64,000 bases of DNA from Streptomyces sp. NBC_00775 (GTDB lineage: Bacteria > Actinomycetota > Actinomycetes > Streptomycetales > Streptomycetaceae): the NCBI RefSeq assembly GCF_036347135.1, contig NZ_CP108938.1, forward strand, positions 558,001-622,000, given 5' to 3'. The translations under genes and the position numbers were made by a program. The first letter of the stretch is position 1. Every line of letters begins with the position of its first letter. The notes below the pieces were generated by a model. That model ran no database searches. It was not told the DNA's origin and was given only the letters and a program-made list of their open reading frames with translations. Shown in pieces: positions 27,603 to 49,419 of this stretch.

Positions 27603-27663
27603 ACTGTCGACAGTTAGGCCCATTGGTGACGTCACAACCCTTGACCGCGCCATTGTGTCGACA
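27603..27663. promoter_or_regulatory. Two TGTCGACA operators upstream of SDR gene
   Basis: ACTGTCGACAGT (27603-27614, perfect palindrome) and TGTCGACA (27656-27663) lie in the 226-bp spacer between the divergent dioxygenase and SDR genes. The motif recurs at four other promoters up to 48 kb and has the GT..AC core of FadR-type GntR operators. Confidence 0.75.
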
Positions 27664-27725
27664 CTAGGAAGGAGTGCGGGGCCCGTTCCGGCCTCGATCG
27701 GCAGCCCCTGACATGGGAGGTCCAC

Positions 27726-28499
27726 GTGACCGGCAGGCTCTCCGGCAAAGTCGCTCTCGTCACCGGCGCGGGCGCCGGGATCGGTCAGGGATGTGCCCTG
27801 CTCTTCGCCGAGCAGGGCGCGACGGTCGTCGGCTGCGACATCGACGAGGGCGCGGCGGAACGCACCCGGAAACTCGCGCACGACAGGGGCCTGGATCTCG
27901 ATGTGCTCGCGCCCCTGGACATGACCGAGCCCGCCGACGCCGACCGGTTCGCGGACGAGGCGTACATCCGGCACGGCCGTGTCGACGTCCTGGTGACCGC
28001 GGGCGCCATCGCCCCGCACATGGCACCGGCCGCGACGATGGATTTCGACGACCAGTGGACGCCGACGCTGCGCGGCGAGATCGATGTGGTCTTCCTGCCC
28101 GTACGAGCGGTCTGGCCGCACATGGAGGCGTCCGGCGGCGGCTCGATCATCAACTTCGCCTCGGTGAACGCCTTTCGGGGCAGCGGTACCTTCGGCATGG
28201 TCGCGCACTGCGCGGGGAAGTCGGCCGTCCTCGGGCTGACGCGCCAACTCGCTGTGGAAGGCGGCCCGTTGGGCATCCGGGCGAACACCGTCTCGCCCGG
28301 CATGGTCCGTACCCCCGCCACCGAGTCGGCCGGAGCGCACGACGGCGCGGCCCGGGACGCGCTCCTCGCCCGGATCCCGCTGGGCCGGGTGGGCAGGCCC
28401 GAGGACATCGCCTGGTGCGCGGTCTATCTGGCGTCCGACGAGTCCGGGTGGGTCACGGGCGGCAACTTCCCCGTGGACGGCGGAGTGCTCGCCAAGTGA
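27726..28499 (+). CDS. Short-chain dehydrogenase/reductase-like protein lacking the catalytic Tyr
   Basis: A 257-residue Rossmann protein with cofactor motif TGAGAGIGQG, an acidic cofactor-binding residue in VVGCDID (suggesting NAD), NFASVNAF and C-terminal VTGGNFPVDGG. The active-site segment reads MVAHCAGKSAV, so His stands where the family YxxxK motif has Tyr; the Lys is kept. Either the reaction uses His or the protein is not a classical dehydrogenase. GTG 27726 follows GGGAGG. Two TGTCGACA operators precede it, placing it in the GntR regulon. Confidence 0.85.
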   Translation: MTGRLSGKVALVTGAGAGIGQGCALLFAEQGATVVGCDIDEGAAERTRKLAHDRGLDLDVLAPLDMTEPADADRFADEAYIRHGRVDVLVTAGAIAPHMAPAATMDFDDQWTPTLRGEIDVVFLPVRAVWPHMEASGGGSIINFASVNAFRGSGTFGMVAHCAGKSAVLGLTRQLAVEGGPLGIRANTVSPGMVRTPATESAGAHDGAARDALLARIPLGRVGRPEDIAWCAVYLASDESGWVTGGNFPVDGGVLAK

Positions 28500-28522
28500 A
28501 CGCCCCCGGGTACGCCCGCACG

Positions 28523-29263
28523 TCAGGACGCGGTGCGGCGTCTGCGCGTGGGCTTGCGGGCGCCCGCGGTGTCCTGTTCCACCTGCTCCTCCACCGCCCG
28601 CAGCGCACGGACCGTCGCCCCCGCGATCAGCGCCGAGGCCAGCTCGCCGTCGCGTTCCTCGCAGGCCTGGAGGAGCCGCTCCTGGTCGTCGACGCTGTAG
28701 GCGAGGCGGCCCGCCCGGGTCAGGCTCAGGTGCCGCAGCATCAGGGTGCGCAGGGCCAGCGAGTCGAGGATCTGCTTCAGCGTGGCATTGCCGACGATCT
28801 CGGTCATCCGCTCCTGGAGCTGCACATGACTCCAGAAGTACGCGTCCACGTCACCGTCGTCGGCGAGCTTCCGCATCCGCTCGACCCGGGTGCGCAGCCC
28901 GGCCAGCTCCTCGTCCGTGGCGCGCTCGACCAGCAGCCCGGCGAGCATCGAAAGGAGCTGGCGCCGCACCTGGTAGATGTCGCGGATGTCCTGGAGGGAG
29001 GGCGCGGCGACCCGGGGCCGGCGACGCGCCTTCATCTCGACCAGGCCCTCCTGTTCGAGGAGCATCAGCGCCTCGCGCACGGGCGTGCGGCTGGTGTCGA
29101 ACCGGCGTGACAGGTCGACGCTGTTGAGGTCCTGGCCCGGTTCGAGGCGGCCCTCGATGATGCCCGCCCCCACCCACTCGGCGATCTGCGCGACCAGCGG
29201 TTCACGACGGTCCCGCAGCCGCAGGAGGCGCCCGAGCACGAGGTGCGTGTCCTGATCGGTCAT
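28523..29263 (-). CDS. FadR-type GntR transcriptional regulator (probable TGTCGACA regulator)
   Basis: A 246-residue regulator with an N-terminal winged helix-turn-helix (about 18-85; RFDTSRTPVREALMLLEQEG) and an all-helical FCD effector domain (about 95-220; DAYFWSHVQLQERMTEIVG). The C-terminus is strongly basic (RKPTRRRRTAS). FadR-type proteins usually repress catabolic genes and release DNA on binding a pathway metabolite. ATG 29263 follows AGGGAG. Its own promoter carries TGTCGACA (29329-29336), and the same motif marks promoters throughout 27.6-48 kb, so it is the best candidate regulator of the catabolic cluster. Confidence 0.92.
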   Translation of the reverse strand: MTDQDTHLVLGRLLRLRDRREPLVAQIAEWVGAGIIEGRLEPGQDLNSVDLSRRFDTSRTPVREALMLLEQEGLVEMKARRRPRVAAPSLQDIRDIYQVRRQLLSMLAGLLVERATDEELAGLRTRVERMRKLADDGDVDAYFWSHVQLQERMTEIVGNATLKQILDSLALRTLMLRHLSLTRAGRLAYSVDDQERLLQACEERDGELASALIAGATVRALRAVEEQVEQDTAGARKPTRRRRTAS

Positions 29264-29328
29264 GCGGCGATTCTCCCTGTCCGGCCCGCGCTGGCAGGTC
29301 TGGTCCAAACGCACAGGCAATCCAACGG

Positions 29329-29388
29329 TGTCGACACTATCTCACCGTATGGCTGATACACATCCCGGTCCAGCGTTACCTGTCGACA
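29329..29388. promoter_or_regulatory. TGTCGACA operators in the divergent GntR/hydrolase promoter
   Basis: Exact TGTCGACA at 29329-29336 and 29381-29388, with a weaker AGTCGACA at about 29404. Located between the GntR gene and the exported alpha/beta hydrolase gene. Confidence 0.75.
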
Positions 29389-29451: not shown

Positions 29452-30411
29452 ATGCGGAGAGAACGTACGACGGCCACCCCCGGTCCGGGGCCGAGCCGAC
29501 GCGCGGTCGTCGGCGGCGCCGCGCTGGCCGCGTTCGCGGCGACGGGCGCCGGACAGGGCGCGGCCCACGCGGCTTCCGGATCCACCGAGGACCCCTGGCA
29601 GCCCGTGCCCGTTCCGGAGCAGCTGCCGGTGACCGAGTATCAGATACCCGTCTCGGGCAGCGGCAGCCTGTGGTGCTGGGACACCGGTGGCAGCGGGCAG
29701 CCCGTCGTCCTGCTGCACCCCGGCTCGGGGAGCGGTGAGAGCTGGCCGTACCAGCAGCCGGTCCTGGCCCGCGCGGGCTTCCGGGTGATCGGGTACTCGC
29801 GGCGCGGTGCGTACGGCTCGGTGGCCGGGACCCGGGCCGAGGCCGACACCGCTTCGGGGGACCTCAACACCCTCGCCGACCACCTCGGCCTGGACCGCTT
29901 CCACCTCTCCGGGTCGGCGGCCGGTGGCCCGGTGGCCCTCGACTACGCCCTCTCGTACGCGGACCGGCTGCGCAGCCTCACCGTCTCGGGCAGTGTGATG
30001 GGCATCCAGGACACCGAGTACCAGGAACTCACCTCGACCCTGCAGCCCGACCCGTTCGGCGACATGCCCGTCGACTTCAAGGAGTTGGGGCCCTCGTACC
30101 GGGGAGGCGACCGGGACGGTGTCGCGGCCTGGCTCGCCATCAACGCCCGGGCCAGGACGGCGGACGCGTTCGCGCAGTCACTGGCCCATGAGATCACCTG
30201 GGCGGCTCTGGAGACGCTGACCCTGCCGGTCCAACTCATCACCGGCGACGCCGACCTGTACAGCCCGCCCTCCGTGATGCGGCTGAACGCGGCGCATGTG
30301 AGCGGCGGCGAGACACACGTCGTCCGCGAGGCGGGCCACAATCCGCACTGGGAGCAGCCCGCCGCGTGGAACCGGCTGCTGGTGCGCTTCATGAAGCGGC
30401 ACAGCCGGTAG
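29452..30411 (+). CDS. Exported alpha/beta-fold hydrolase-like protein with Ala at the nucleophile position
   Basis: A 319-residue protein with a Tat-like signal (SRRAVVGGAALAAFAATG) and an alpha/beta-hydrolase core: oxyanion LLHPGSGSGESW, elbow LSGSAAGG, acid region ITGDADLY and His in REAGHNPHWEQP. In the elbow pattern G-x-Nuc-x-G the nucleophile position is Ala (G-S-A-A-G). I recall relatives with GTAAGG, so this may be a subfamily trait rather than a mutation. The chemistry is uncertain. It diverges from the GntR gene across TGTCGACA operators and is the only clearly exported enzyme controlled by that motif. Confidence 0.8.
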   Translation: MRRERTTATPGPGPSRRAVVGGAALAAFAATGAGQGAAHAASGSTEDPWQPVPVPEQLPVTEYQIPVSGSGSLWCWDTGGSGQPVVLLHPGSGSGESWPYQQPVLARAGFRVIGYSRRGAYGSVAGTRAEADTASGDLNTLADHLGLDRFHLSGSAAGGPVALDYALSYADRLRSLTVSGSVMGIQDTEYQELTSTLQPDPFGDMPVDFKELGPSYRGGDRDGVAAWLAINARARTADAFAQSLAHEITWAALETLTLPVQLITGDADLYSPPSVMRLNAAHVSGGETHVVREAGHNPHWEQPAAWNRLLVRFMKRHSR

Positions 30412-31354: not shown

Positions 31355-31554
31355 GGTGCACTCCTTATGACACAACGTTGAGGCCGGCCCGATGCGCCAC
31401 TCAGGTGGTGCCGGGCCGGTGCTTCCACGGTGCGACCGCAGGGAGTTCCACGTCCAAGACTTGTTCCGCATCAGTCCATACGCTTCAGGCATCGCCACAG
31501 GTCAAGGTGTCAGTCTGGTGTCAACTGGCGCGCACGAGGGGTTACGCTCGCAGC

Positions 31555-32481
31555 ATGTCCGACTCTCCGCCGCCTCCGGTGGACCTCGATCTGCGCCTGG
31601 TGAGGTACTTCACCGTCGTCGCCGAGCACCGGCACTTCGGCCGCGCCGCTGCCGCCCTGCACATCGCCCAGCCGTCCCTGAGCCGGCAGATCCGCCGCCT
31701 CGAACAGCAACTGGGCGCCCGCCTGCTGGACCGCACCCCGCAGGGCAGCCGGCTCACCGAGGCCGGCGAGGTCTTCCTGCCGCACGCCAAGGCGTTGCTG
31801 CGGTCGGCCGCCCAGGCCTCGGCGCGCACCCGGGCCGCCGCCCAGCCCAGCCGCATCACCATCGGCTACACCGCGAACCTCATCGTCACCCCGGCGGTGC
31901 GTGAGCTGCGCCGCCGGCACCCGGACGCCGACGTACACACCCTGCATCTGCCCTGGAACGAACAGCGCGCGGCTCTGCTCGATCACCGCGTGGACGCGAC
32001 GGTGACCCGGCTGCCGTTCCCGACCGGCCAGCTGCACGTGACGGTCCTCTACGACGAGCCGCGGGCGCTCCTCGTCCCTCGCGGCCATCGGCTGGCCGGC
32101 AAGGGGTCCGTCACCCTCGACGACATCGCCGACGAACCCCTGCCCCGGGTGTCCGACGCGGCCTTCGACGCCTTCTGGCGCGTCGATCCACGACCCGACG
32201 GGAGCCGGGCACCCGACGGCCCCTTCGTGGCGGCCTTCGAGGACAAACTCGAGGCCATCGCCACCGGGGAGGCCGTGGCCATCGTCCCGGCCGATCCGCG
32301 CGTCGACAGTCTCCGCCCCGATCTCACCACGGTCCCCCTGTACGGCGTCGAGCCGAGCCACGTCGTGCTGGCGACCCGCGCCGGCGACCCTGGCCGCCTG
32401 GTGGCGGCCTTCCGCAAGTACGCCCAGGCCCACCTCACCGGTCCCGGTCCCGGCCCCGCCGCACCGGACGGCCTCGGCTAG
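31555..32481 (+). CDS. LysR-family transcriptional regulator
   Basis: A 308-residue LysR protein: helix-turn-helix at about 10-70 (LRLVRYFTVVAEHRHFGRAA, HIAQPSLSRQIRRLEQQLG) and a substrate-binding co-inducer domain from about 100 (RITIGYTANLIVTPAVRELR). It is divergent from the epimerase-like gene across a 200-bp spacer that contains GGTGTCAG/GGTGTCAAC repeats (about 31507-31528), a plausible LysR site. It therefore probably activates that gene rather than the GntR regulon. Its stop codon overlaps that of the CMD gene by three bases, tail to tail. Confidence 0.92.
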   Translation: MSDSPPPPVDLDLRLVRYFTVVAEHRHFGRAAAALHIAQPSLSRQIRRLEQQLGARLLDRTPQGSRLTEAGEVFLPHAKALLRSAAQASARTRAAAQPSRITIGYTANLIVTPAVRELRRRHPDADVHTLHLPWNEQRAALLDHRVDATVTRLPFPTGQLHVTVLYDEPRALLVPRGHRLAGKGSVTLDDIADEPLPRVSDAAFDAFWRVDPRPDGSRAPDGPFVAAFEDKLEAIATGEAVAIVPADPRVDSLRPDLTTVPLYGVEPSHVVLATRAGDPGRLVAAFRKYAQAHLTGPGPGPAAPDGLG

Positions 32482-32996
32482 GGCTCGCTCGGCTGTACGT
32501 CCAGGGCGACCAGGAACCGGGAGACCATGTTGTACGCGGCGACGGTGGCGGTCAGTTCGACCAGCTCCATGTCGCTGAAGTCGGCCCGCAGGGCGTCGAA
32601 GAGCCCCTCCGGGACATGGACGTCGCGGGTCATCGCGTCGGTGTAGGCGATGACCCGCCGGTGGCGTGCGTCGAGTTCCGGGTGCTCGGCGGCGTTCTCG
32701 GCGCGCACCGCCGCGAGTTGGGTGTCGTCGAGGCCGGCGCGGCGGGCCTCGGGCTCGTGTGCCGTCCACTCGTACGCGGCCCGGTTGAGGACGGCGATCC
32801 GCAGGATCACGAGTTCGCGGATGTCGGCGGACAGGGCGATACGCTGCCGGACCGCGCCGAGCAGGCTGTTCCACCCGTCGGCCAGTTGGGGGCTGTGCAG
32901 CAGCATGCGGTCGAGCGGGCGCAGGGTCCCGCCCCGCCGCTCGCGGATGCGTTCGGCGATCTCGCCGGTGCCGTCGGTCTCCGGCAGTCGTGCCAC
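32478..32996 (-). CDS. Carboxymuconolactone decarboxylase (CMD)-family protein
   Basis: A 172-residue AhpD/CMD-fold protein with the family helix ELVILRIAVLNRAAYEWTAH (about 80-100) and conserved Glu/His, but without the CxxC of AhpD peroxidases, as in the decarboxylase-like branch. Many such proteins sit in aromatic or lactone catabolic clusters with uncertain chemistry. GTG 32996 follows AAAGGAG. It is the last gene of the operon FAH-family, amidohydrolase, carboxylesterase, CMD, which starts at the TGTCGACA promoter near 36.6 kb. Confidence 0.85.
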   Translation of the reverse strand: MARLPETDGTGEIAERIRERRGGTLRPLDRMLLHSPQLADGWNSLLGAVRQRIALSADIRELVILRIAVLNRAAYEWTAHEPEARRAGLDDTQLAAVRAENAAEHPELDARHRRVIAYTDAMTRDVHVPEGLFDALRADFSDMELVELTATVAAYNMVSRFLVALDVQPSEP

Positions 32997-33008: not shown

Positions 33009-34469
33009 TCACAGAGGGCGAGCTGTGCGCGCCAAGAGATTCATCGCCTCCAGGCGGTCGAAGACCCCCGCCTCCACGGTGTCGCCGAAGAACATCACTT
33101 CGGGGCCGGTGAAGACCGGCCACGCGGGCAGCGCGCCCCCGTTCGGGTCCCCCGTCCGCACGAACCGCGCCCACGCGTCGGCCATCGTGCGCGCCAGCTC
33201 GCGGTCCAGCTCGCTCCAGGGCCAGGGGCGCTGGTCCAAGTTGTCGAGTACGTAGGGCAGTTCGGCGGTGTGGTGCACGCCGTATCCCGGCAGACCGTCG
33301 GGTGGGGCGGCCAGGTCGAGTCCGGCGGGCAGCGGAGGTGTCCGGGTGAAGCGGTACATCCACGTCCGGGCGCTCGCCCGGTGTGCCGTGGCCCAGCGCC
33401 ACACGGGGTAGGTGAAGCGGCTCTCACCGGTGAACTGCCGTACGGTGCGCCGGGCCTGGCCGGCGTCACGGACCGGGTACACCTCGTCCGAACCGGGTTC
33501 CACCGGCAGCCTTCTCAGGGCGTCCAGCGAGGTGTACACCGATCCCTCGTCGAGATTGGTGCCCACCAGCAGCGGTACGGCGTGCTGGCGGCCCGAGGCG
33601 AAGACGTCGTCCGTGGGCTCGGTCAGCAGGCGACCGTCGACGACCGGGCCGAAGTGGCCCTTGAGGACCAGCTCCACGCCGCTCGTCCGCCGCAGTCCGG
33701 TGATGTCCCGGTCCCCGAACTCCCCCGCCCAGCACAGCCCTTGCTTCTGTGCCGCGCTCTGGTCCGGGAGCGGCCCCTCGGCGCGGCCGATGCCCGAGGC
33801 GCTCTGCCCGACGGCCGCGCGGAAGAGGGGCCGGGCCGCCGCCGATGCCATGAGGTGGCAGATGTGCGCGGCCCCTGCCGAGTTGCCCGCGAGGGTCACC
33901 CGGTCGGGGTCGCCGCCGAAGGCCGCGATGTTCTCGCGGACCCAGGTAAGGGCGGCGACCATGTCGAGCAGGCCGTAGTTGCCGGATGCCCCGAGGTCGT
34001 CCTCCGCGGCCAGTTCGGGGTGGGCGAGGAAGCCGAGGGCGCCGAGGCGGTGGTTGAGGGTGACGACGACCAGACCCCGGCGGGCCAGGGCGCGACCGTC
34101 GTGCAGGTCCAGCCCGCCGTGCCCGTAGCGGTTGCCGCCGCCGTGGATCCACACCATCACCGGGAGCCCGCGCCCGGCCGGGTCGGGGGTCCACACATTG
34201 AGGTAGAGGCAGTCCTCGCTCATCACCAGGGCCCGCCGGTCGGCGAAGTTGGTGTGGTACATGATCGAGTCGCGGGGCGGCTGTGGCTGCAAGGGGGCAG
34301 GGCCGAAGTCGTACGCGCGTCTCTCGCCGTCCCAGCCGGCGGCGGGCCGGGGCGGCCGCCAGCGCAGTTCGCCGACCGGTGGCTCGGCGTACGGGATGCC
34401 GCGGAAGACGGCGATGCCGGTGTCCCACTCCCCCACGAGCCGCCCGCCCGTGGTGCGCGCGCGGATCAC
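33009..34469 (-). CDS. Type B carboxylesterase
   Basis: A 486-residue carboxylesterase/lipase with the family N-terminus (FRGIPYAEPPVGELRW), the signature EDCLYLNVWTP, oxyanion WIHGGGNRYGHG and nucleophile elbow VTLAGNSAGAAHI, and a C-terminal His in YGVHHTAELPY. There is no signal peptide, so it is likely cytoplasmic and could hydrolyse an ester after uptake by the nearby ABC transporter. GTG 34469 overlaps the upstream amidohydrolase stop (GTGA), indicating translational coupling. It belongs to the TGTCGACA-controlled operon. Confidence 0.92.
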   Translation of the reverse strand: MIRARTTGGRLVGEWDTGIAVFRGIPYAEPPVGELRWRPPRPAAGWDGERRAYDFGPAPLQPQPPRDSIMYHTNFADRRALVMSEDCLYLNVWTPDPAGRGLPVMVWIHGGGNRYGHGGLDLHDGRALARRGLVVVTLNHRLGALGFLAHPELAAEDDLGASGNYGLLDMVAALTWVRENIAAFGGDPDRVTLAGNSAGAAHICHLMASAAARPLFRAAVGQSASGIGRAEGPLPDQSAAQKQGLCWAGEFGDRDITGLRRTSGVELVLKGHFGPVVDGRLLTEPTDDVFASGRQHAVPLLVGTNLDEGSVYTSLDALRRLPVEPGSDEVYPVRDAGQARRTVRQFTGESRFTYPVWRWATAHRASARTWMYRFTRTPPLPAGLDLAAPPDGLPGYGVHHTAELPYVLDNLDQRPWPWSELDRELARTMADAWARFVRTGDPNGGALPAWPVFTGPEVMFFGDTVEAGVFDRLEAMNLLARTARPL

Positions 34470-35686
34470 GCCCGCGCCTTGTGCAACACGCCGTCCTTCA
34501 TGATCGCCACGAGGCGGTCGCGGTCCTGGAGGATGCGGATGTCGGTCAGGGGGTCACCGTCGACGAGGACGAGGTCCGCGAGGAAACCCTCCCGTATGAG
34601 GCCGAGTTCGTCCTCCATGTCCATGATCTGGCCCCCGTACTGGGTGGCCGCGCGCAGTGCTTCGGCGGGAGTGAAGCCGAACCACTCGACGAAGAGTTCC
34701 AGGTCCCGCAGGTTGCGTCCGACCGGGTTCCAGGCGAAGCCGTAGTCTCCGCCCGGGACGACGCGTATCCCGCGCCTCACGAGTTCGGGCACGACCTGGC
34801 GTACGGCCTTGGCGGTCGCCTCGACCTCCATGCCGGGCTCGGGTTCGCTGTCGGCCTCGTACAGGTTGGCGTGGATGATGCCGGGGGTCGGGGCGACGAA
34901 GACGCGGTCGCGGGCGGCCTCCAGGAGGTCGAGGGCCTCCTCGTCGGCGAAGGTGCAGTGGTAGAGGGCGCGGATGCCTTGACGTACGGCCATCTTGACG
35001 GACTCGGCGGCGTGCGCGTGCGCGGTCAGCCAGACACCGCGCCGCTGGGCGGCGCGTGCCGCGGCGGCCACCTCCTCCTCCGTGAACTGCACGATCCGCG
35101 AGCTGCCGGCGACCACCGCGCTCTCGCCGGAGAGCGACAACTTGACGATGTCGACGCCCAGTTCGGCCATGCCCTCGACGAACCGGGCGACCGACTCCGG
35201 GTCCGAGGCACGGCCGTCGATGCCCGGGAAGTCGTACACCCCGGGTTCGACCATGCCCGCGCTGCCCTCCCAGGACGCGGCCTTGAGACGCGGCCCCGGC
35301 ATCCAGCCCTCGGCGAACGCCTTGCGGGCCGCGATCTCCGTGCGGGGCAGCCGGTTGCCGCCCGAGTAGGCGCTGGTGATGCCGTGGTCGAGCAGGACGC
35401 GGCCTGCGTGCGCCACCAGCAGGGCCTTCTCCTCGTCCGGTTCGTCGCGGCGCCGGGAGCGGTGCTCGACGGTGGAGCCGAAGCCGAGGTGGGCGTGCGC
35501 GTCGACGATCCCGGGGAGCAGGGTGCCACCGCCGCCGTCGATGACGCGGGCCGAACGCCGTTGGCCGGCGGGGATGTTGGGCGCCACAGCGGTGATGCGG
35601 CCGCCCTCGACGAGGACCTCCGCGGGGAAGGGATCGCGTCCGGTGCCGTCGAAGACCCGGACGTCGGTGAAGAGGGTCGCGGTCAT
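34466..35686 (-). CDS. Amidohydrolase-superfamily enzyme (imidazolonepropionase/prolidase-like)
   Basis: A 406-residue metal-dependent hydrolase. An N-terminal beta domain (LFTDVRVFDGTGRDPFPAEV) leads to the metal-binding motif GIVDAHAHLGFGS. Further ligands are the Lys in DIVKLSLSGES, His pair region LTAHAHAAESVK, LYHCTF and Asp in GGDYGF. A C-terminal beta segment ends DLVLVDGDPLTDI. The Lys-containing layout fits the prolidase/imidazolonepropionase group that cleaves cyclic amides or peptides. ATG 35686 is six bases downstream of the FAH-family stop, and it is coupled to the carboxylesterase by GTGA. Substrate unknown. Confidence 0.9.
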   Translation of the reverse strand: MTATLFTDVRVFDGTGRDPFPAEVLVEGGRITAVAPNIPAGQRRSARVIDGGGGTLLPGIVDAHAHLGFGSTVEHRSRRRDEPDEEKALLVAHAGRVLLDHGITSAYSGGNRLPRTEIAARKAFAEGWMPGPRLKAASWEGSAGMVEPGVYDFPGIDGRASDPESVARFVEGMAELGVDIVKLSLSGESAVVAGSSRIVQFTEEEVAAAARAAQRRGVWLTAHAHAAESVKMAVRQGIRALYHCTFADEEALDLLEAARDRVFVAPTPGIIHANLYEADSEPEPGMEVEATAKAVRQVVPELVRRGIRVVPGGDYGFAWNPVGRNLRDLELFVEWFGFTPAEALRAATQYGGQIMDMEDELGLIREGFLADLVLVDGDPLTDIRILQDRDRLVAIMKDGVLHKARA

Positions 35687-36597: not shown

Positions 36598-36609
36598 ACT
36601 GTCGACAGT
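36598..36609. promoter_or_regulatory. ACTGTCGACAGT operator between FAH operon and SDR gene
   Basis: A perfect 12-bp palindrome containing TGTCGACA, only 15 bases upstream of the FAH-family start codon. A degenerate TGTGGACACA follows near 36651, on the side of the divergent SDR gene. Confidence 0.8.
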
Positions 36610-36690
36610 CAGCCTGCCCAGAGGTGGGTTTGGCGTCAAGAGTCGCGCAAAGTGTGGACACAAAATGCGGCGGTGGCTTACGGTCCGAGC

Positions 36691-41925: not shown

Positions 41926-42746
41926 ACGACGACTCCGTTGCTCTTCTCGATGGTCACGGGCTTCGACGGACGGGCGCGCGGGGCGCGTTGGTGGTACCAG
42001 CCGAGAAGGCGGTGCTCGCACAGCAGGAGGAACACGCTCAGGCCGTATCCGAGGATGCCGATCAGGATGGTGCCGGCCCAGGTCTCGGCGACGTGGAAGC
42101 TCGATCCGCTCTGCAGGATGAAGTTGCCGAGGCCGACGGGCGAACCGTAGATCTCGCTGACGACCATGAGGACGACGGCGATGGACAGGGAGACACGGAT
42201 GCCCGCCAGGATCTGCGGCAGCGCGCCCGGCAGGATCACCCGGCGCAGCCGCAGCCGCCACGGGATGCGGTAGCCGCGCGCGGTCTCGTGCACGGCCGGG
42301 CTGATGGCCTGCACTCCGCTGACGGTGTTGAGGAGGATGGGCCACAGCGAGCCGAGAAAGATCAGGAAGATCTTCGGGCCCGAGCCGATGCCCAGGGTGA
42401 GGATGATGACGGGCACGAATCCCACGGTCGGTGTCGCGCGCGCGAAGTCGAGCAGGGGCGCGGTCGCCAGGCGCAGGGTGCGTATCTCGCCGATGACCAG
42501 GCCCGCGCCCACCCCCACGACGGTGGCGAGCGCCAGTCCGCTCACTATGTTGCGCAGGCTGTAGAGCAGGTCGCCGACGAGGCCGCCGTGGACGAGCTCG
42601 GACCACAGGGTGCTCAGGACTTCGGTCAGGGGCGGGAAGTAGAAGCTGGTGTTGCCCGCGGTGGCGACGAGCAGGATCGCGAACACCAGGGCGGGCAGCC
42701 AGAGTTGACGCAGGATCGGTTTCCAGGGCACACGGCCGCGGTTCAT
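41922..42746 (-). CDS. ABC transporter permease 1 (SsuC/TauC type)
   Basis: A 274-residue inner-membrane permease with about six transmembrane helices and the EAA coupling loop (HETARGYRIPWRLRLRRVILP followed by GALPQILAGIRVSLS). It is paralogous to, but clearly different from, the permease at 42751-43518. It overlaps the ATPase start by four bases and starts four bases after the other permease's stop, so the two are expected to be made together, perhaps as a heterodimer. Confidence 0.95.
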   Translation of the reverse strand: MNRGRVPWKPILRQLWLPALVFAILLVATAGNTSFYFPPLTEVLSTLWSELVHGGLVGDLLYSLRNIVSGLALATVVGVGAGLVIGEIRTLRLATAPLLDFARATPTVGFVPVIILTLGIGSGPKIFLIFLGSLWPILLNTVSGVQAISPAVHETARGYRIPWRLRLRRVILPGALPQILAGIRVSLSIAVVLMVVSEIYGSPVGLGNFILQSGSSFHVAETWAGTILIGILGYGLSVFLLLCEHRLLGWYHQRAPRARPSKPVTIEKSNGVVV

Positions 42747-42750
42747 GGGT

Positions 42751-43518
42751 CTACTCGCCTCCTGTGTGCACGGGCGGCCGCCAGCGCAGCAGCCGGTGCT
42801 CGGCGAACTGTGCCAGCAGAGTGATCGAGTAGCCGATCGCGCCCGCGGAGAAGATGTAGGCGTACGCCCGCGCCGACGCCCCCGCCTGCTGCGACTCCAT
42901 GATCATGTGGCCGATGCCGGGGAGCGTGGTGAGCACTTCGACGCCGATGGACACCAGGACGGAGGTGGTCGCGGCGAGCCGCAGCCCGGTCATGATGGAC
43001 GGCACCGCGCCCGGCAGGACGACCCGCCGGAAGCGCAGCAGCCTGGGGATGCGGTAGGACCGTACGGTCTCGTGCACGGCCGGGGGCACGCTGCGGGCGC
43101 CGTACTGGGCCTGGAGCAGCACCGGGAAGACGCAGGCGATGAAGACGACGGTCGCCTTCATGCCGGGCGTCGAGCCGAGGACCAGGAGGAAGACCGGGAG
43201 CAGGGCGATGACCGGGAAGGAGCGGAGGATCTCCATGAGCAGCCGTGAGGACTCCTCGGCCGCCGCGTACACCCCGGTCACCAGGCCCACAGGAATCCCT
43301 ACGGCGATCGCCACCACGAGCCCGGTGACCGCTCCGCGCAGGGTGTCGCCGACCGCCTGCCAGAACGTGCCGCTGCCGGCGAGCTGCCACAGGGCGGAGG
43401 CGACGGAGCCGGGGCCCGGAAGCGCGGTCGAACTCACCACGCCGATCGCCGCGATCAGCGCCCAGAGCCCCAGGACGGCGGCCAGCGCCCCGAGTTGAAG
43501 CAGTCGGACCTTCACCAT
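42751..43518 (-). CDS. ABC transporter permease 2 (SsuC/TauC type)
   Basis: A 255-residue permease with about six transmembrane helices (first: LLQLGALAAVLGLWALIAAI) and the EAA loop HETVRSYRIPRLLRFRRVVL. It shares the SsuC/TauC fold with permease 1, at moderate identity by eye. It starts five bases after the stop of the binding-protein gene. Importers of this class usually have one permease forming a homodimer; here two adjacent permease genes imply a heterodimer. Confidence 0.95.
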   Translation of the reverse strand: MVKVRLLQLGALAAVLGLWALIAAIGVVSSTALPGPGSVASALWQLAGSGTFWQAVGDTLRGAVTGLVVAIAVGIPVGLVTGVYAAAEESSRLLMEILRSFPVIALLPVFLLVLGSTPGMKATVVFIACVFPVLLQAQYGARSVPPAVHETVRSYRIPRLLRFRRVVLPGAVPSIMTGLRLAATTSVLVSIGVEVLTTLPGIGHMIMESQQAGASARAYAYIFSAGAIGYSITLLAQFAEHRLLRWRPPVHTGGE

Positions 43519-43523: not shown

Positions 43524-44534
43524 CTACTCCCCACCGGAGGTCGGCGCCTGGTCCCAGTAGATGGCCGAGTCCTTGGGCTCCTTGTCGAGGAGGTCGAACT
43601 CGTGCATCTTCGTGACGACCGTGCGCATGACGGTGGTGTCGAGGTTCTTGTCGTAGTAGTTGGTGTCGTGCTTGTCGATGTACGCGGCGGGGACCTGGGT
43701 GTACTTCTTGTCGATCGCCTTGACGGCCGTGGGGTGTGCGTTGGCGTAGGTGATGGCCTTGGCGACGGCGTCGATGAACTTCTTCGCCGTGTCGCCGTTC
43801 GATGCCAGGTACTTCTGGCTGGAGAAGAGGACGCCCTGGACCATGCCGGGGAGGTCGTTCATGCCGTTGCCGATGGTGCGCAGTCCGCTCTCCTTGGCCG
43901 CCGCGTAGAACGGGCCGAAGGAGAAGATGGCGTCGGTCTTGCCGGAGGTGGCGGCGTCGGTCAGCGAAGTCGTCGGCAGCGCGACGAACTTGACCTTCTT
44001 CGGGTCGCCGCCGTCCTTCTGCACCAGGTACTCGCAGATGAACTGGATGGTGCCGCCGAGCGCGGAGATCCCGACGGTCTTGCCCTCCAGGTCGGAGAAG
44101 GACTCGATGGAGCTGCTCTTCTTGACCAGCAGTCCGTCGGTGGGGGCGGTCTTCGTCGTCGCGGACTGCAGACCGGTGACGATGCGCAGCGGCATGTCCT
44201 GGGCCGCGCTCTTGAGGAAGCCGGAGCTGTCCGTCATCGCGAACTGGGCCTCGCCGTTGAGGACGGACGGCGCGTTCTGCGAGGTGTCCTGCGCGCCCGC
44301 CTTGATGGTGACGTCCAGGCCGGCGTCCTTGAAGTAGCCCTGCTGCTCGGCGATGTAGAGCGGCTCGAAGATGGCTCCGTTGGAGCGCAGGACGGTGACC
44401 TTGGCCTTGCCGTCGGCGCTCCTGGCCTCGCCGGCCGCGTCGCCGCCGCAGGCCGTGGTCGCGAGGGACAGGGTGGCGATCACCGCGGTGAGGGCGAGCA
44501 GGGTACGGCGCCGCGGGCTTCTCGAAGTCTCCAT
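43524..44534 (-). CDS. ABC transporter substrate-binding lipoprotein (SsuA/TauA/NMT1-like)
   Basis: A 336-residue lipoprotein with basic N-terminus, hydrophobic h-region and lipobox LATTACGG (lipidated Cys about residue 29). The mature part is a type II binding protein of the nitrate/sulfonate/thiamine-precursor group (LYIAEQQGYFKDAGLDVTIK, VNGEAQFAM-like LNGEAQFAMTDSSG, LEGKTVGISALGG). Ligand cannot be predicted; relatives bind sulfonates, aromatic acids or pyrimidine precursors. GGAGAG precedes ATG 44534. It follows the FAD-linked oxidase gene by 26 bases in the TGTCGACA-controlled operon. Confidence 0.93.
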   Translation of the reverse strand: METSRSPRRRTLLALTAVIATLSLATTACGGDAAGEARSADGKAKVTVLRSNGAIFEPLYIAEQQGYFKDAGLDVTIKAGAQDTSQNAPSVLNGEAQFAMTDSSGFLKSAAQDMPLRIVTGLQSATTKTAPTDGLLVKKSSSIESFSDLEGKTVGISALGGTIQFICEYLVQKDGGDPKKVKFVALPTTSLTDAATSGKTDAIFSFGPFYAAAKESGLRTIGNGMNDLPGMVQGVLFSSQKYLASNGDTAKKFIDAVAKAITYANAHPTAVKAIDKKYTQVPAAYIDKHDTNYYDKNLDTTVMRTVVTKMHEFDLLDKEPKDSAIYWDQAPTSGGE

Positions 44535-44560: not shown

Positions 44561-45928
44561 TCAGTGCGTCCGGGCGGGTGCCGCGGCGGCGTAGGCGGTG
44601 GTGGATTCCAGCGGGGACATGTACGTCCGGAACAGTCCCGCCGGGTCGTACGCGGCCCGGATCTCCTCCAGGCGTGCGGAGTTGCTCGGGCTGAGCCCGT
44701 GATCGAAGCGGTCGGCGAGGTTGTTGTCGGAGAACTGCAGGCCCTTCGACAGGTGCTGGATCGCGGCGAGTTCGCCGTGCGCCCACCGCTCGTGGGCGAG
44801 GTCCTCGGCCGGGTCGGTCCAGCCCGCGTTGGGCGAGAGGTAGACCTTGGCCTGGCTGGACCAGCAGGCGTCGGTGCGCGGCGGGTAGTGGCCCCAGAGC
44901 ATCCACAGCACATGGCTGGTGGTGTCCGGGATGGAGTCGAACAGCGGCCCGGCCGCGGCCAGGATCTTGTCGACGGGGCCGTCGGCCCAGATCCCGTCGA
45001 GGGCCCAGCGCATCCCGGCCGGGGTGAGCCGGTCGGCGGCGTCGTACAGCTCGGCCATGCTCGTCTCCTGCGCGATCACCGCACGCACGGCCCGGTCGCG
45101 GAAGGGGGCGGCCTCCAGCGGGGCGAGCGGGTTGTCGCCGGTCTCGCAGAAGGCGGTCGCCGTGAGGGAGGCGGTCTTACGGTCGAGGCCGGGAGTGAAG
45201 CCCACCTTCGCCGAGAACTCGACTGCGGGCGACAGGCTTTCGAGCGTGTCGTACGCCCAGCTCAGCACCTCGTCGCGGAGTTCGAGCGGGTAGCTGTGCA
45301 CGGTGCGCAGGATGCGCTGAGGCCGTTCGTGGAGGCGGAGGTGGAAGCGGGTGACCACGCCGAAGAAGCCGGGGCCGCTCCCCCGCGCCGCCCACAGCAG
45401 GTCGGGGTGCGAGGCGTCGGTGGCGTGCACCAGGCTGCCGTCGGCGAGGACCACGTCGATCGCCTCGATGCTGAGACAGGCGGGGTCGAGCCTGCGTGAG
45501 TCCCAGCCGTAGCCGCCGCCGAGGAGGAAGCCGCCGAGGCCGACCGTCGGTGCGTGCCCGGTGGGGAAGAACAGGCCGTGCGGTGCGAGGAGTTGGTCGA
45601 GTGCCGGTCCCTTGACGGCGGGTTGTACGGCTGCCGTGCGGGCCACCGGGTCCACGGAAGCCTGCTGCATCCGTGACAGGTCGAGCAGCATTCCGCCGTC
45701 CCGCACCCCGTTGCCCACCCAGCTGTGACCGCCCGAGCGGATGCCGATCGGCAGTCCTTCCCGGCGGGCCAGACGGACGGCCGCGACGACGTCCCGCTCG
45801 TCCTCGGCGAGGGCGATCACCTCGGGAAAGCGGCTGGGCTTGCGTTCGTTCCAGACGGCGTCGAGGCGGGCATGCTCATAGGCCTCGTCGCCGCGACGGA
45901 TGAGGGTGCCCTGAGGCAGGTCGTGCAT
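44561..45928 (-). CDS. FAD-linked oxidase (berberine bridge enzyme-like)
   Basis: A 455-residue flavoprotein of the PCMH/VAO superfamily: FAD domain with IGIRSGGHSWVG (His68, probable covalent FAD attachment), TGHAPTVGLGGFLLGGGYGW and the BBE C-terminal segment ending in SNSARLEEIRAAYDPAGLFR. Such enzymes oxidise alcohols, sugars or cyclise aromatic/alkaloid compounds using O2. There is no signal peptide. GAGGAG precedes ATG 45928. It is the first gene of the operon that also encodes the ABC importer and VOC protein, directly behind a TGTCGACA operator; it may perform the first oxidation of the imported substrate. Confidence 0.92.
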   Translation of the reverse strand: MHDLPQGTLIRRGDEAYEHARLDAVWNERKPSRFPEVIALAEDERDVVAAVRLARREGLPIGIRSGGHSWVGNGVRDGGMLLDLSRMQQASVDPVARTAAVQPAVKGPALDQLLAPHGLFFPTGHAPTVGLGGFLLGGGYGWDSRRLDPACLSIEAIDVVLADGSLVHATDASHPDLLWAARGSGPGFFGVVTRFHLRLHERPQRILRTVHSYPLELRDEVLSWAYDTLESLSPAVEFSAKVGFTPGLDRKTASLTATAFCETGDNPLAPLEAAPFRDRAVRAVIAQETSMAELYDAADRLTPAGMRWALDGIWADGPVDKILAAAGPLFDSIPDTTSHVLWMLWGHYPPRTDACWSSQAKVYLSPNAGWTDPAEDLAHERWAHGELAAIQHLSKGLQFSDNNLADRFDHGLSPSNSARLEEIRAAYDPAGLFRTYMSPLESTTAYAAAAPARTH

Positions 45929-45966: not shown

Positions 45967-45974
45967 TGTCGACA
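45967..45974. promoter_or_regulatory. TGTCGACA operator upstream of the oxidase/transporter operon
   Basis: Exact TGTCGACA, 39 bases upstream of the FAD oxidase start, embedded in AGTACTGTCGACACTT. A degenerate TGCCGACA occurs near 46019. Confidence 0.75.
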
Positions 45975-46026
45975 CTTTCGGCCTTCAAGGGGTGTGACGG
46001 CGAAATAGTTGCCATCTCTGCCGACA

Positions 46027-46986
46027 CTAGTGAGTTTCTTCGAAATCGAAGAGCTCCGCCGGGTTGTCCACGAGCAGCCGCCGCAAGTGCGTGGCGTCCG
46101 GAGCCAGTTGCTCAAGGAGGTCCACGAGCAGCCCGTCGTCCGGTGCGGGGCCGGTGATGTTCACATGCGGGTAGTCGGTCCCCCACAGCACCCGTTCGGG
46201 CGCGTACGCCACCAGGGAGGCGGCCACCGCGACGGCGTCGGCGTACGGCGGCCCCTGCCGGGAGACCCGGTCGACCCCGCTGACCTTCACCCACACGTCC
46301 CCGGTGTCGAGGAGGGCGCGCAGGCTGCGCAGGGCGGGGCCGCCCCGTCCGGCGCTGACGTCGACGCGCCCGATGTGGTCGATCACGGCCCTGCCGGGCA
46401 GCGCGCGCACCAGCTGCTCCAGGCCGACGATCTCCTCGTCCCTGACGTGGAGTTGGGCCGACCAGCCGAGTCCGTCGACGCGTTCGAGCACCGAGTCGAT
46501 CTCGGCGCGGGTGGGCGGGGTGCGCAGATGGGGCAGGAAGTTCAGCCGGAAGGCCCGTACTCCCGCGCGGTGCAGTTCCTCGATCTCGGCTCTGCTCGTC
46601 GCCTTGCCGATCAGGGCCACTCCGCGCAGCCGTCCGGCACCGGAGGCCAGCGCGTCCAGCAGCACACGATGGTCGTGGCCGTGACAGGAGGACTGCACGA
46701 CGACGGCCCGGGTCAGCCCCAAGTGGGCGTGCAGGGCGCGAAGTTGTTCCTTCGGTGCGTCGAGCGGGGTGAAGGTGCGCTCCGGCGCGTACGGGAAGAC
46801 CTCGGCCGGGCCGAAGATGTGGCAGTGGGCGTCGCAGCTGTCCGGCGGGAGCACCAGCGTGGGGGTACGGGGCGCCGGGTGCGGGGGCGGGCAGCCGGGC
46901 GAGGGGGTCGACTCCGGCGCCTGGACGGATGGCTGAGTCAACTCCGGTGCCTGGGCGGAGGGTTGGGTCACCGCCGGCTCAGTCAC
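46027..46986 (-). CDS. Amidohydrolase related to 2-pyrone-4,6-dicarboxylate lactonase (LigI-like)
   Basis: A 319-residue TIM-barrel hydrolase. After a Pro/Gln-rich N-terminal repeat (QPSAQAPELTQPSVQAPEST), the catalytic domain starts SCDAHCHIFGPAEVFPYAPE, very close to the LigI/PDC-hydrolase signature. It continues AVVVQSSCHGHDHRVLLDAL, VIDHIGRVDV and LWGTDYPHVN with the catalytic Asp. LigI opens the lactone of 2-pyrone-4,6-dicarboxylate in lignin-aromatic catabolism; this protein may open a related lactone. GTG 46986 overlaps the preceding SDR stop (GTGACTGA), so the two are coupled. Confidence 0.88.
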   Translation of the reverse strand: MTEPAVTQPSAQAPELTQPSVQAPESTPSPGCPPPHPAPRTPTLVLPPDSCDAHCHIFGPAEVFPYAPERTFTPLDAPKEQLRALHAHLGLTRAVVVQSSCHGHDHRVLLDALASGAGRLRGVALIGKATSRAEIEELHRAGVRAFRLNFLPHLRTPPTRAEIDSVLERVDGLGWSAQLHVRDEEIVGLEQLVRALPGRAVIDHIGRVDVSAGRGGPALRSLRALLDTGDVWVKVSGVDRVSRQGPPYADAVAVAASLVAYAPERVLWGTDYPHVNITGPAPDDGLLVDLLEQLAPDATHLRRLLVDNPAELFDFEETH

Positions 46987-47803
46987 AGCGCGCCGTCATT
47001 CCACCGTCGACGACGATCTCCGTGCCGGTGACGAATCGGGCCTCGTCGGAGGCGAGGAACAGGGCGGCGTACGCCGTGTCCCGGCCGTCGCCCATGAACC
47101 CGAGCGGGATCCTGGCCTGCCGCTGCGCCAGCAGCTTCGCCACGTCACCGCCCGCGCGCTGGCCGGCGAGGCGGGCCTCCACCATCGGGGTGTGCAACTG
47201 CCCGGGGACGACGGTGTTCACGCGGATGTTGTCGGGGGCGTACTCGACGGCGGTCACCCGGGACAGCTGGATGACCGCCGCCTTCGCCGACGCGTAGCCG
47301 ACCTGGGCGGCGCCGGTCCAGCGCAGCCCGGACGCCGACGCGGTGTTGACGATCGCGCCTCCGCCGCCGCGCCGCATCACCGGGATGGCGTGCTTGCAGG
47401 CGAGGAAGGCGCTGGTGAGGTTGGTGCGCAGCTGGCTGTCCCAGTCCTCCAGGCTCAGGTCGACGGCGCCGCCCGCGCGGGAGCCGCCGACGTTGTTGAC
47501 GAGGATGTCGATCCGCCCCGCCCGCTCCTCGCATTCGGCGAAGAAGCCCTGGACGGCGGAGGGTTCGGTCATGTCGAGGACGGCCGTGTGGGCGGTGCCG
47601 CCTTCCTCACGCACGTGCCGCGCGGTCACCTCCAGGGACTCCTTGTCCCGGTCGGTCAGGAAGACGGTGGCGCCCTCCCGGGCGAAGATCACGGCGGTGG
47701 CGCGGCCGTTGCCCCAGCCGGGACCGACGCTGCCGGCGCCGCCGATGACCGCGATCCGGCCGGCCAGCCGGCCCGGCCGCTGATGCGGGATGTCTTGGGT
47801 CAC
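46979..47803 (-). CDS. Short-chain dehydrogenase/reductase
   Basis: A 274-residue classical SDR with an unusual, extended cofactor loop (IGGAGSVGPGWGNGRATAV), acidic LTDRDKE (NAD-favouring), NNVGGSRAGG, Ser in VNTASASGL, catalytic GYASAKAAVIQL and ending VTGTEIVVDGG. It probably forms the lactone or ketone substrate of the coupled LigI-like enzyme, by analogy with the dehydrogenase that makes 2-pyrone-4,6-dicarboxylate; that is inference. GTG 47803 follows GAGGGAG. It diverges from the DRE-TIM gene across three TGTCGACA sites. Confidence 0.92.
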   Translation of the reverse strand: MTQDIPHQRPGRLAGRIAVIGGAGSVGPGWGNGRATAVIFAREGATVFLTDRDKESLEVTARHVREEGGTAHTAVLDMTEPSAVQGFFAECEERAGRIDILVNNVGGSRAGGAVDLSLEDWDSQLRTNLTSAFLACKHAIPVMRRGGGGAIVNTASASGLRWTGAAQVGYASAKAAVIQLSRVTAVEYAPDNIRVNTVVPGQLHTPMVEARLAGQRAGGDVAKLLAQRQARIPLGFMGDGRDTAYAALFLASDEARFVTGTEIVVDGGMTARCD

Positions 47804-47900
47804 GGGAACTCCCTCGGTCGGAGCGATGGGACAGGCTGCGAAACCGGTCGACGCGTCTACGGCGGACGGTGACCGCGCACGCGGGGCGAGCCGTCGAGCC

Positions 47901-47980
47901 TGTCGACAGTCTTAGCCAGGTGTCGACAGAAAGTAAACATCGAGGCATCTGAAGCACATCTATTGCCTTTAGTGTCGACA
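47901..47980. promoter_or_regulatory. Three TGTCGACA operators in the SDR/DRE-TIM divergent promoter
   Basis: Exact copies at 47901-47908, 47921-47928 and 47973-47980. The first two are 20 bases apart (about two helical turns), suggesting cooperative binding. Confidence 0.8.
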
Positions 47981-48002
47981 GGTGGCTTGGATGGGCTCGG
48001 GA

Positions 48003-48077
48003 ACGCACCACGGATCCACGCCCCGCCGATCCACGCACCACGGATCCACGCCCCGCCGATCCACGCCCGACCGATCC
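48003..48077 (+). repeat. Five tandem 15-bp repeats in the leader of the DRE-TIM gene
   Basis: Units ACGCACCACGGATCC and ACGCCCCGCCGATCC alternate twice (two identical 30-bp blocks, 48003-48032 and 48033-48062), followed by a fifth unit ACGCCCGACCGATCC. They fill the space between the last TGTCGACA site and the ribosome-binding site CGGAGG. Confidence 0.9.
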
Positions 48078-48093
48078 ACGCCCGGAGGACGCC

Positions 48094-49419
48094 ATGGACA
48101 AGCCGCCCGTGTTCACCGCCGAGGAAATCGCCCGGTTCCGCGCGGAGTTGGCGGCACGGCGCGCGCCCGGCGCCCACGAGCCCGGCCACTGGTCGGTCAG
48201 TCCGCTCAACCGGCGCCCGGACGTGGTGGGTTCACTTCCTCCGGCTGTCCGGCTGCGGGACGCGACCCTGCGCTCGGTGGAGACACTGCCGGGCGTCGTC
48301 GCCTCCGCCGAGGCGAAGGAGACGTTTCTGCGCGGGCTCGTCGGCAGCGGGGTTCCCGAAGTCGTCACGGCCGGCATCGGCGGCCGTGACGACACCGCGC
48401 TCAAGTCCGAGGTGAGCCTGGTCAAGGGCGAGAACCCCGACTGCCGGATCGTGTGTCCGCTGATGCGCTCGACGGACGACATCGACCGTGCGGCCGAGGC
48501 CGGTTACGACGCCGTACAGGTCTGGGTGCAGGGCTTCGGCGAGATGTCCCTCATCTACCAGCCGATGATCTACGGCCGGGCATGGCGCGGCGAGGAGTGG
48601 CGTACCTCCGGGACTCCGCGCGACCGTGCCGCCGTACTGGCCCGCGCGACCCGGCTGATCCAGCACGCGCGCGGCCGCGGCCTCGATGTGATCGTGCCGC
48701 TGCTGATGGTCTCGTACCTGACCGAGGAGACTCACGAGGAGTCGGTGACCGTGCTGGCCGGAGCCGGCGCCACCGAACTCACCCTGTTCGACGGACCCGG
48801 CGCCATGAGCCCGGAGGCGTACGCGTACCTGGTCCGCCGCACCCGGACCCTCGCTCCGGACGTCGAGGTCGGGCTGCACCCGCACAACACCTTCGGCCTG
48901 GCGGTCGGTTGCGCGGTCGCCGCCGTACGGGCGGGCGCCGCGGCCGTCGAGCTCTCGGTGAACGGCTACTGCGGCGGGCCCGGCAACGCCGACCTGGCCG
49001 CGACGGCTCTGGCCTTCGAGGCGCTGTACGGCGTACGGACCGGGATCAGGACCGAGCGGCTGACCGAACTGGCCAGGGCCGGCGAGTCCCTGACGGGCTA
49101 TCACACCGCGTGGAATCACCCGGTGACCGGCACCCACGCCTTCTGCTGGGGAGGCATGGACCTCATCACCCAGGAGACGGAGGTCGACCCCCTTCTGCAC
49201 AACTGCCTGGAGCCCACCCTGGTCGGCAACGGCCGCAAGGTCCCGTTCACCCCCGACAGCGGCCCGTACACCCTGACCGACAAGCTGACGGCGCTCGGCT
49301 TCGAGCTCACCCAGGCCCAGGTCGAGGAAGTACTGGTCCGTTCCCGGGAGTTGATGGCCGACGGCGGCCGCCTGCTCACCGACGAGGACCTGGCCGCGCT
49401 GGCGAGCGAGGTCCGGTGA
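48094..49419 (+). CDS. DRE-TIM metallolyase family protein (HMG-CoA lyase/citramalate synthase-like)
   Basis: A 441-residue TIM-barrel protein. VRLRDATLRSVET stands for the usual RDGxQ-type first strand, and GLHPHNTFGLAVG carries the HxH(N) metal ligands. A third conserved segment, ELSVNGYCGGPGNADLAAT, resembles the G-hairpin/Cys region of HMG-CoA lyases (NxxGxG and Cys). The N- and C-terminal extensions differ from standard members. It should cleave or form a C-C bond at a 2-oxo or acyl-CoA site, a reasonable last step after lactone opening. CGGAGG precedes ATG 48094. Three GntR-type operators and the tandem repeat lie upstream. Confidence 0.88.
   Translation: MDKPPVFTAEEIARFRAELAARRAPGAHEPGHWSVSPLNRRPDVVGSLPPAVRLRDATLRSVETLPGVVASAEAKETFLRGLVGSGVPEVVTAGIGGRDDTALKSEVSLVKGENPDCRIVCPLMRSTDDIDRAAEAGYDAVQVWVQGFGEMSLIYQPMIYGRAWRGEEWRTSGTPRDRAAVLARATRLIQHARGRGLDVIVPLLMVSYLTEETHEESVTVLAGAGATELTLFDGPGAMSPEAYAYLVRRTRTLAPDVEVGLHPHNTFGLAVGCAVAAVRAGAAAVELSVNGYCGGPGNADLAATALAFEALYGVRTGIRTERLTELARAGESLTGYHTAWNHPVTGTHAFCWGGMDLITQETEVDPLLHNCLEPTLVGNGRKVPFTPDSGPYTLTDKLTALGFELTQAQVEEVLVRSRELMADGGRLLTDEDLAALASEVR

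Follow-up and report, generated by a model that had tools for sequence, protein, structure and literature searches.

A candidate catabolic regulon of a FadR-subfamily GntR protein, with paired operators, in Streptomyces sp. NBC_00775 and other actinobacteria

Regulators of the GntR family offer the closest described parallels to the system considered here, a set of catabolic genes in Streptomyces sp. NBC_00775 that carry the 8-bp palindrome TGTCGACA at their promoters and include a gene for a FadR-subfamily GntR protein. These genes lie in a stretch of 64,000 nucleotides (NZ_CP108938.1, positions 558,001 to 622,000, forward strand), which is called the window below and supplies all positions unless otherwise stated. 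Sites of the FadR subfamily are GT..AC palindromes with 2 to 3 nucleotides between the halves, part of them with a GT-CG-AC core, according to the portion of the paper retrieved (PMC4494728). For example, PrpR (PA0797), the FadR-subfamily repressor of the prp operon in Pseudomonas aeruginosa, is likewise an FCD-type GntR protein, and the identical 8 bp form the core of its predicted site, ATTGTCGACAAT; the motif thus belongs to a known class. PrpR differs in that it governs the 2-methylcitrate cycle and in that paired operators are not mentioned for it in the retrieved part of the report (PMC9765439); its core is flanked by T and A, whereas C or G flanks 97% of half-sites here (116 sites). Operator pairs have been described for Atu1419 of Agrobacterium fabrum, a tetrameric VanR-type FCD GntR protein for which electron microscopy shows looping between two operators, as given in the accessible text (PMC7797058). 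It shares with our system an FCD GntR repressor, palindromic operators and a link to aromatic catabolism. Its operator, ATGTATACAT, occurs in pairs 190 and 109 bp apart and its effector is methylene-tetrahydrofolate (PMC7797058), whereas the spacings here are 52, 63 and 74 bp. BusR of Streptococcus agalactiae is also a GntR protein that gauges the distance between two operators, but with an RCK_C C-terminal domain, a 22-bp ruler and c-di-AMP as effector, as the available part of that paper describes (PMC8517857). Among the matches listed in the open-access literature, none describes this motif, gene set or regulator, such a Streptomyces regulon, or an operator rule of 52, 63 and 74 bp.

We consider it likely that the window holds a catabolic regulon whose FadR-subfamily GntR repressor also controls its own gene and acts through paired operators. 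The first-pass annotation had already read the block as one regulon for import and degradation, and that reading stands; its interval was too narrow, the regulon beginning at about 24060, and its account of the motif was incomplete because the pairing and spacing of the operators had been overlooked.

Ten exact copies of TGTCGACA and no more are present in the 64 kb, nine of them intergenic and one coding, and all ten coordinates listed earlier were recovered. Dinucleotide shuffles of the window give a mean of 1.28 copies (standard deviation 1.21, maximum 5 in 100 shuffles), which makes the original estimate of less than one expected copy slightly low and leaves the excess itself real. The nine intergenic copies fall in five intergenic regions, four of which separate divergent genes. 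Across the whole genome (one contig of 11,096,612 bases) there are 114 copies, against 69 of the reversed pattern, and a 20.49-kb interval of the window holds 10 where 0.19 are expected, a Poisson tail of 1.6e-14 that is flattered by the interval having been picked on account of its sites. Of the 104 copies that lie elsewhere than in the cluster, the first 26 were sampled: 20 are inside genes predicted by codon GC, and 6 are outside any predicted gene. As far as this sample of one quarter shows, the motif is not scattered across unrelated promoters, and the finding that the first-pass annotation had named as refuting its proposal, unrelated promoters equally rich in the motif, did not appear in this partial test. 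The single coding copy (41215), within the gene for the ATPase of an ATP-binding cassette (ABC) importer, was judged incidental; it has a counterpart in similar context in one relative (locus L053, position 3315; L and G numbers are our labels for loci and genomes) and is absent from most others. In a GC-rich genome TCGA-type palindromes are not rare, and an excess might arise by chance or composition, but the shuffles, the genome-wide count, the reversed-pattern controls and the conservation described below all contradict this, and the explanation was rejected as having next to no probability.

The operators are paired at fixed distances. Exact pairs lie 51 bp apart at 27605..27612 and 27656..27663, ahead of the short-chain dehydrogenase (SDR) gene SDR1, and 52 bp apart at 29329..29336 and 29381..29388, between the divergent GntR and alpha/beta hydrolase (ABH) genes, with AGTCGACA nearby at 29404. 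The divergent region between SDR4 and the DRE-TIM gene holds three operators (47901, 47921 and 47973, spanning 47901..47980), 20 and 52 bp apart. The two remaining operators have one-mismatch partners: the site at 36600..36607, at the gene of the fumarylacetoacetate-hydrolase family (FAH), is joined by TGTGGACA at 36653..36660 (53 bp), and that at 45967..45974, in the minus-strand promoter of the oxidase/ABC operon, by TGCCGACA at 46019..46026 (52 bp). Each promoter region of the window thus has two operators, with a one-mismatch partner needed in two of the five, and one-mismatch sites are in excess at 52 to 53 bp from exact ones. Genome-wide, the only exact pairs with a 32- to 60-bp spacer are the three of the window and a fourth at C1:3244179, while the reversed pattern gives none.

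In the wider collection of relatives, 97 distinct neighbouring pairs at most 200 bp apart fall at 49 to 54 bp (50 pairs), 62 to 64 bp (22), 72 to 76 bp (7), 19 to 21 bp (8) and elsewhere (10), with none at 55 to 61 or 65 to 71 bp. When pairs 40 to 90 bp apart are reduced to one median per genus and promoter, all 39 medians lie in 49 to 54, 62 to 64 or 72 to 76 bp, with a period of 10.5 and R=0.80, a value that 0 of 50,000 uniform draws reach; an earlier helical-phase test, which used the 16 unique distances found in 20 clusters, had p=0.001. There is, with exceptions, a strong preference for spacings of 5, 6 or 7 turns (about 52, 63 and 74 bp), which would place both operators on the same face of the DNA. 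A geometric explanation must be weighed here, in which the regulon is the same, the paired operators act independently, one for each divergent promoter, and the fixed distance simply reflects promoter geometry. The pairs 27605/27656, 29329/29381 and 47921/47973 do lie between divergent genes, and for FadR-subfamily divergons Suvorova et al. count 71 with separate sites against 29 with common double sites, in the part of the paper at hand (PMC4494728). However, exact 52-bp pairs are also found between tandem genes, namely two same-strand flavin adenine dinucleotide (FAD) oxidase genes in G200, L057, L058 and L059, as is the window pair 45967/46019 if one mismatch is allowed, and at orthologous SDR4/DRE-TIM promoters the spacing shifts in steps of about 11 bp (52, 63-64, 75). 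Independent operators therefore seem to us a possible but not the favoured explanation, and binding of the GntR protein is probably cooperative or through a short loop.

Where promoter elements can be recognised, the operators overlap them. A TTGAC lying exactly 15 bp ahead of the operator is seen in 21 of 474 oriented contexts (expectation 0.26), and in all 21 a TA follows nine bases past the first base of the operator, with the full TANNNT in 10. This layout is that of a sigma-70-like promoter whose 18-bp spacer contains the operator. SDR1 is an example: its putative -35 element, TTGACC (27641..27646, plus strand), precedes the operator at 27656 by 15 bp, TA stands at +9, and the operator falls within the 18-bp spacer of TTGACC-N18-TAGGAA. 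In the case of the oxidase/ABC operon, the operator lies, by eye, between a putative -35 TTGAAG and -10 TACTGT with a 17-bp spacer. At FAH promoters, TTGACG is found in 13 contexts at a distance of 32 bp ahead of the operator, so that the operator would fall on the likely transcription start and precede the ribosome-binding site; in the window, the operator at 36600 is just downstream of the putative FAH -10. Such positions, in the -35/-10 spacer or just past the -10, are typical of repressors, and the overlap with the core promoter suggests that the GntR protein is probably a repressor. A conserved box, GAAAGTAAACAT (47929-47940), was also seen directly 3' of the middle SDR4/DRE-TIM operator in most of the Streptomyces relatives compared; the operator does not account for it.

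The most likely regulator is the GntR protein encoded in the window (28523..29263, minus strand, 246 amino acids), as judged from co-occurrence, the site at its own promoter and the motif class. Both a GntR winged helix (PF00392, 7.3e-13) and an FCD domain (PF07729, 1.4e-21) were found, in agreement with its original assignment to the FadR subfamily, and its own promoter carries a GT..AC palindrome of the expected kind, TGT-CG-ACA, at 29329 and 29381. Of the 25 genomes searched, which cover 25 of the 35 loci described below, 19 have a relative of the regulator (E<=1e-30), among them all 16 that have the cluster; identity is 87 to 96% in the 12 Streptomyces among the 16, and in 13 of the 16 the regulator shares a contig with the DRE-TIM locus. 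One could also propose another regulator, for example an unlinked one or the LysR-type protein whose gene lies within the window cluster (31555-32481), but LysR matches in relatives' stretches are weak (35 to 36%, L129 and L136), against 16 of 16 for GntR, and a short palindrome with a GT-CG-AC core matches part of the FadR-subfamily sites in the text retrieved (PMC4494728). We regard another regulator as very improbable, and LysR itself was rejected because it is not conserved in the relatives' stretches examined. With the GntR protein as regulator, one dimer would read each TGTCGACA palindrome; one operator of a pair would overlap the core promoter with its partner upstream, and two dimers, or a dimer of dimers, would bind jointly and shut the promoter. 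A metabolite of the pathway would then release the protein, and the exported enzymes, the ABC importer and the intracellular enzymes would be made together.

Conservation was assessed through a DRE-TIM family search, which gave 35 loci in named genomes. Seventeen hold further cluster genes, and the motif is present in all 17, one of which (L056) is a short contig with SDR4 only. Pairs are absent from the other 18, four of which hold one or two scattered copies; L066 (Acrocarpospora), which belongs to these 18, adjoins cluster L131 and is therefore no clean negative. The searches proposed by the first-pass annotation, for the motif in this genome and its relatives and for synteny of the whole block, were run and showed rearranged versions of the cluster in Streptomyces, Nonomuraea, Nocardioides, Actinomadura, Acrocarpospora and Amycolatopsis, where the motif marks the same genes. 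Gene order varies between genera, and the operators are kept at SDR1, GntR, FAH/SDR2, the oxidase or importer, and SDR4/DRE-TIM. Exact pairs (N40-68) number 2 to 6 in each of 18 cluster genomes and 0 in six genomes that lack the GntR gene, and the reversed control is 0 of 24. Among 249 family genomes, an exact pair is found in 7 of 8 with the regulator (1e-40) against 9 of 241 without it (Fisher 8e-9), and the reversed control has a single match in each of 3 of the 249. Another genus has more distant GntR relatives (43 to 48%) in five genomes; one exact pair, at 72 to 75 bp, is present in four of these and adjoins an ABC gene in G071 and G085. DRE-TIM relatives of about 50% identity (L068-L083; Actinomadura and others) have a different conserved neighbourhood that lacks motif pairs, and their neighbourhoods (groups 1, 2, 3, 7 and 12) gave no clue to the substrate.

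Two side observations concern the regulator family. In four genomes of another genus (L041, L043, L048 and L049), two GntR relatives (43 to 48%) lie about 6.4 kb apart and each genome has one TGTCGACA pair at 72 to 75 bp, which is beside an ABC gene in L041 and L043; this is probably a sister regulon. Actinomadura madurae (G262; L064 and L128) has two regulator copies, 58% and 89% identical to the window protein, and the second may have been acquired horizontally from a Streptomyces-type cluster.

Several points weigh against a single, helically phased, GntR-controlled regulon. A recognisable -35/-10 is seen at only a minority of operators (21 at -15 and 13 at -32, of 474), and many of the 474 contexts are homologous, so these counts are not independent; none was assigned to the window's GntR/ABH and SDR4/DRE-TIM operators. 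Helical phase falls short of significance when pairs at most 200 bp apart are merged to 15 distance classes with the rare long ones included (p=0.24; p=0.16 at most 120 bp), distances of 13, 86, 98, 100, 140 and 184 bp are out of phase, and the spacing tests include Streptomyces promoters that are only partly independent of one another. The GntR gene is on another draft contig in 3 of the 16 cluster genomes (G250, G254 and G273), and G130, with a 44% GntR relative, has no exact pair. Finally, the exported arm of the system is variable between relatives, and the Nonomuraea stretches examined contain no beta-helix-like gene.

The exported arm begins with the minus-strand operon (24060-27499) that the pair 27605/27656 faces. 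Its last gene encodes an exported FG-GAP (beta-propeller type) protein (24060..25274; FG-GAP_3, 8.9e-52; signal peptide by eye), preceded by an exported FGE/SUMF1-like protein (25405..26544; FGE-sulfatase, 1.6e-31; twin-arginine type signal SRRKLFALGG by eye); homologues of both adjoin operator pairs in relatives. The first gene, divergent from SDR1, encodes an exported intradiol ring-cleavage dioxygenase (26639..27499; Dioxygenase_C, 1.8e-12; twin-arginine type signal by eye), with 6bdj as nearest solved chain (2.9e-30). In relatives the gene facing SDR1 may be intradiol (L118, L122), FGE-like (L125, L127) or FG-GAP (L119, L129), and on this predicted evidence the operon belongs to the regulon. 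An exported beta-helix-like protein (38508..40484, minus strand; fold inferred from repeats, start codon uncertain) probably belongs to it as well, a membership suggested by relatives, in which the family is found near operators. It has no Pfam match and no solved relative, and the weak dynactin-domain matches of its family in a profile search against solved chains were taken as chance.

Operator pairs outside the main cluster in relatives (L107, L109, L112, L113, L114 and L115) adjoin the same kinds of exported genes, FGE-like, FG-GAP, intradiol or beta-helix-like; they are 51 bp apart (52 in L115), and L112 holds an extra 54-bp pair. The source genome has a 51-bp pair at L020:8180-8238 (G000:C1:3244179-3244237) that lacks a regulon gene and lies between a multicopper oxidase and a cysteine desulfurase (names given by eye), a position that is occupied by exported regulon-type genes in L112 and L113. 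In L108 and L111 a 51-bp pair also stands near these two genes with the exported regulon genes absent, and in L110 one stands ahead of another exported hydrolase-like gene. Such bare pairs may be operators that remain after gene loss or movement. In L107 a 112-aa exported mini-protein (6207-6545), in which a signal peptide is joined to no more than the C-terminal portion of the beta-helix-like family, directly follows the operator pair and precedes the FG-GAP gene.

The other predicted products of the regulon include an FAD-linked oxidase, four SDRs, LigI-like, FAH and DRE-TIM proteins, an esterase, an amidohydrolase, carboxymuconolactone decarboxylase (CMD)-like and VOC proteins, and an NMT1-type importer. 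SDR1 (27726..28499, plus strand; adh_short_C2, 1.2e-53) and the exported ABH (29452..30411, plus; Abhydrolase_1, 5e-20; twin-arginine type signal by eye) flank the GntR gene. NAD-epimerase and LysR genes (30473-32481) also lie inside the cluster, but neither turned up beside it in the relatives' stretches examined. A minus-strand series, likely an operon with FAH as first gene, comprises CMD (32478..32996; PF02627, 4e-12; also in relatives' clusters), a type-B carboxylesterase (33009..34469; COesterase, 4.8e-99), an amidohydrolase (34466..35686; Amidohydro_1, 1.5e-24) and FAH itself (35693..36583; PF01557, 1.9e-65), whose close solved chains include 6iym and 8gsr. SDR2 (36691..37437) and SDR3 (37538..38320) follow on the plus strand. 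A VOC/glyoxalase-fold protein (40634..41044; PF00903, 1.8e-15) is encoded on the minus strand, as is the oxidase/ABC operon, which holds the importer ATPase (41047..41925; ABC_tran, 4.5e-32), permeases 1 (41922..42746) and 2 (42751..43518), an NMT1/THI5-type substrate-binding protein (43524..44531; PF09084, 7.2e-39) and the FAD-linked oxidase of the VAO/BBE type (44561..45928; PF01565, 3.3e-31), with EncM as nearest solved chain. The LigI-like amidohydrolase of the lactone hydrolase family (46027..46986; Amidohydro_2, 2.6e-54) and SDR4 (46979..47803) are also on the minus strand, opposite the DRE-TIM (HMGL-like) C-C lyase or synthase (48094..49419, plus; PF00682, 1.2e-28). The last has the RD and HxH(N) motifs, with R55-D56 and H262/H264/N265 invariant in 14 sequences. 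Two pectate lyase genes (Pectate_lyase and Pectate_lyase_4 families; 49506-51426) lie directly 3' of it and have no exact operator.

Comparison with characterised enzymes gives some insight into what this pathway may do. The LigI-like protein matches 2-pyrone-4,6-dicarboxylate hydrolase (LigI, 4d8l; 9.2e-65) over near full length and keeps the HxH, DH.GR and GTD.PH motifs, including the Asp and HxH/His residues that we take to be catalytic. The arginine after RFNFL (KRL to PHL) and the tyrosine of VIYFE (VIYF to QLHV) are replaced; these positions are presumably residues of the dicarboxylate pocket, so the substrate pocket probably differs and the protein is called LigI-like only. The intradiol dioxygenase belongs to a catechol-cleaving family whose nearest solved chain is the secreted spider mite enzyme DOG, and the mite intradiol enzymes cleave many plant aromatics, according to the part of the report retrieved (PMC9167512). 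The window enzyme differs in being bacterial, in its twin-arginine type signal and in lying within a catabolic regulon.

The exported proteins (intradiol dioxygenase, hydrolase, FGE-like, FG-GAP and beta-helix-like) would act on an external substrate, and the product would be imported and degraded by the dehydrogenases, the FAD oxidase, the LigI-like lactone hydrolase, the FAH-family hydrolase and the DRE-TIM lyase. The cyclic compound of the first-pass annotation is retained here as a conjectural substrate class, and our best guess is a catechol-type plant phenolic. Alternatively, the substrate could be a sugar acid or pectin-derived compound: the FAH protein resembles 2,4-didehydro-3-deoxy-L-rhamnonate hydrolase (154 bits, short of the cut-off of 500), SDRs and a lactonase suit sugar-acid routes, and the two pectate lyase genes follow the cluster. 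Those genes, however, have no operator, as no exact motif occurs past 47980; none of the cluster genes scanned was recognisable as a sugar-acid dehydratase, and the exported enzyme facing SDR1 is an intradiol dioxygenase. We consider a sugar-acid substrate rather unlikely and keep the plant phenolic as the working choice. A bolder combination can be offered tentatively, as one that is less likely than not to hold as a whole: an FCD-type GntR repressor would measure helical turns, spanning two operators at a separation of 5, 6 or 7 turns, and would control a new actinobacterial pathway in which exported enzymes, several with twin-arginine type signals, open a plant phenolic extracellularly and the product passes through an importer to a lactonase, a diketone hydrolase and a DRE-TIM lyase, while pairs at a second locus outlast their genes.

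The result is a near-complete candidate regulon of about 20 genes that is found across six actinobacterial genera. With its operator rule, pairs 5 to 7 turns apart with one member in the promoter core where this is visible, cooperative binding or looping by a GntR protein of the FadR type can be put directly to the test. The paired pattern can also be used to find further candidate members genome-wide at low background, with a pair in 9 of 241 genomes that lack the regulator. In Streptomyces, the regulon would tie secreted ring-opening enzymes to import and intracellular breakdown.

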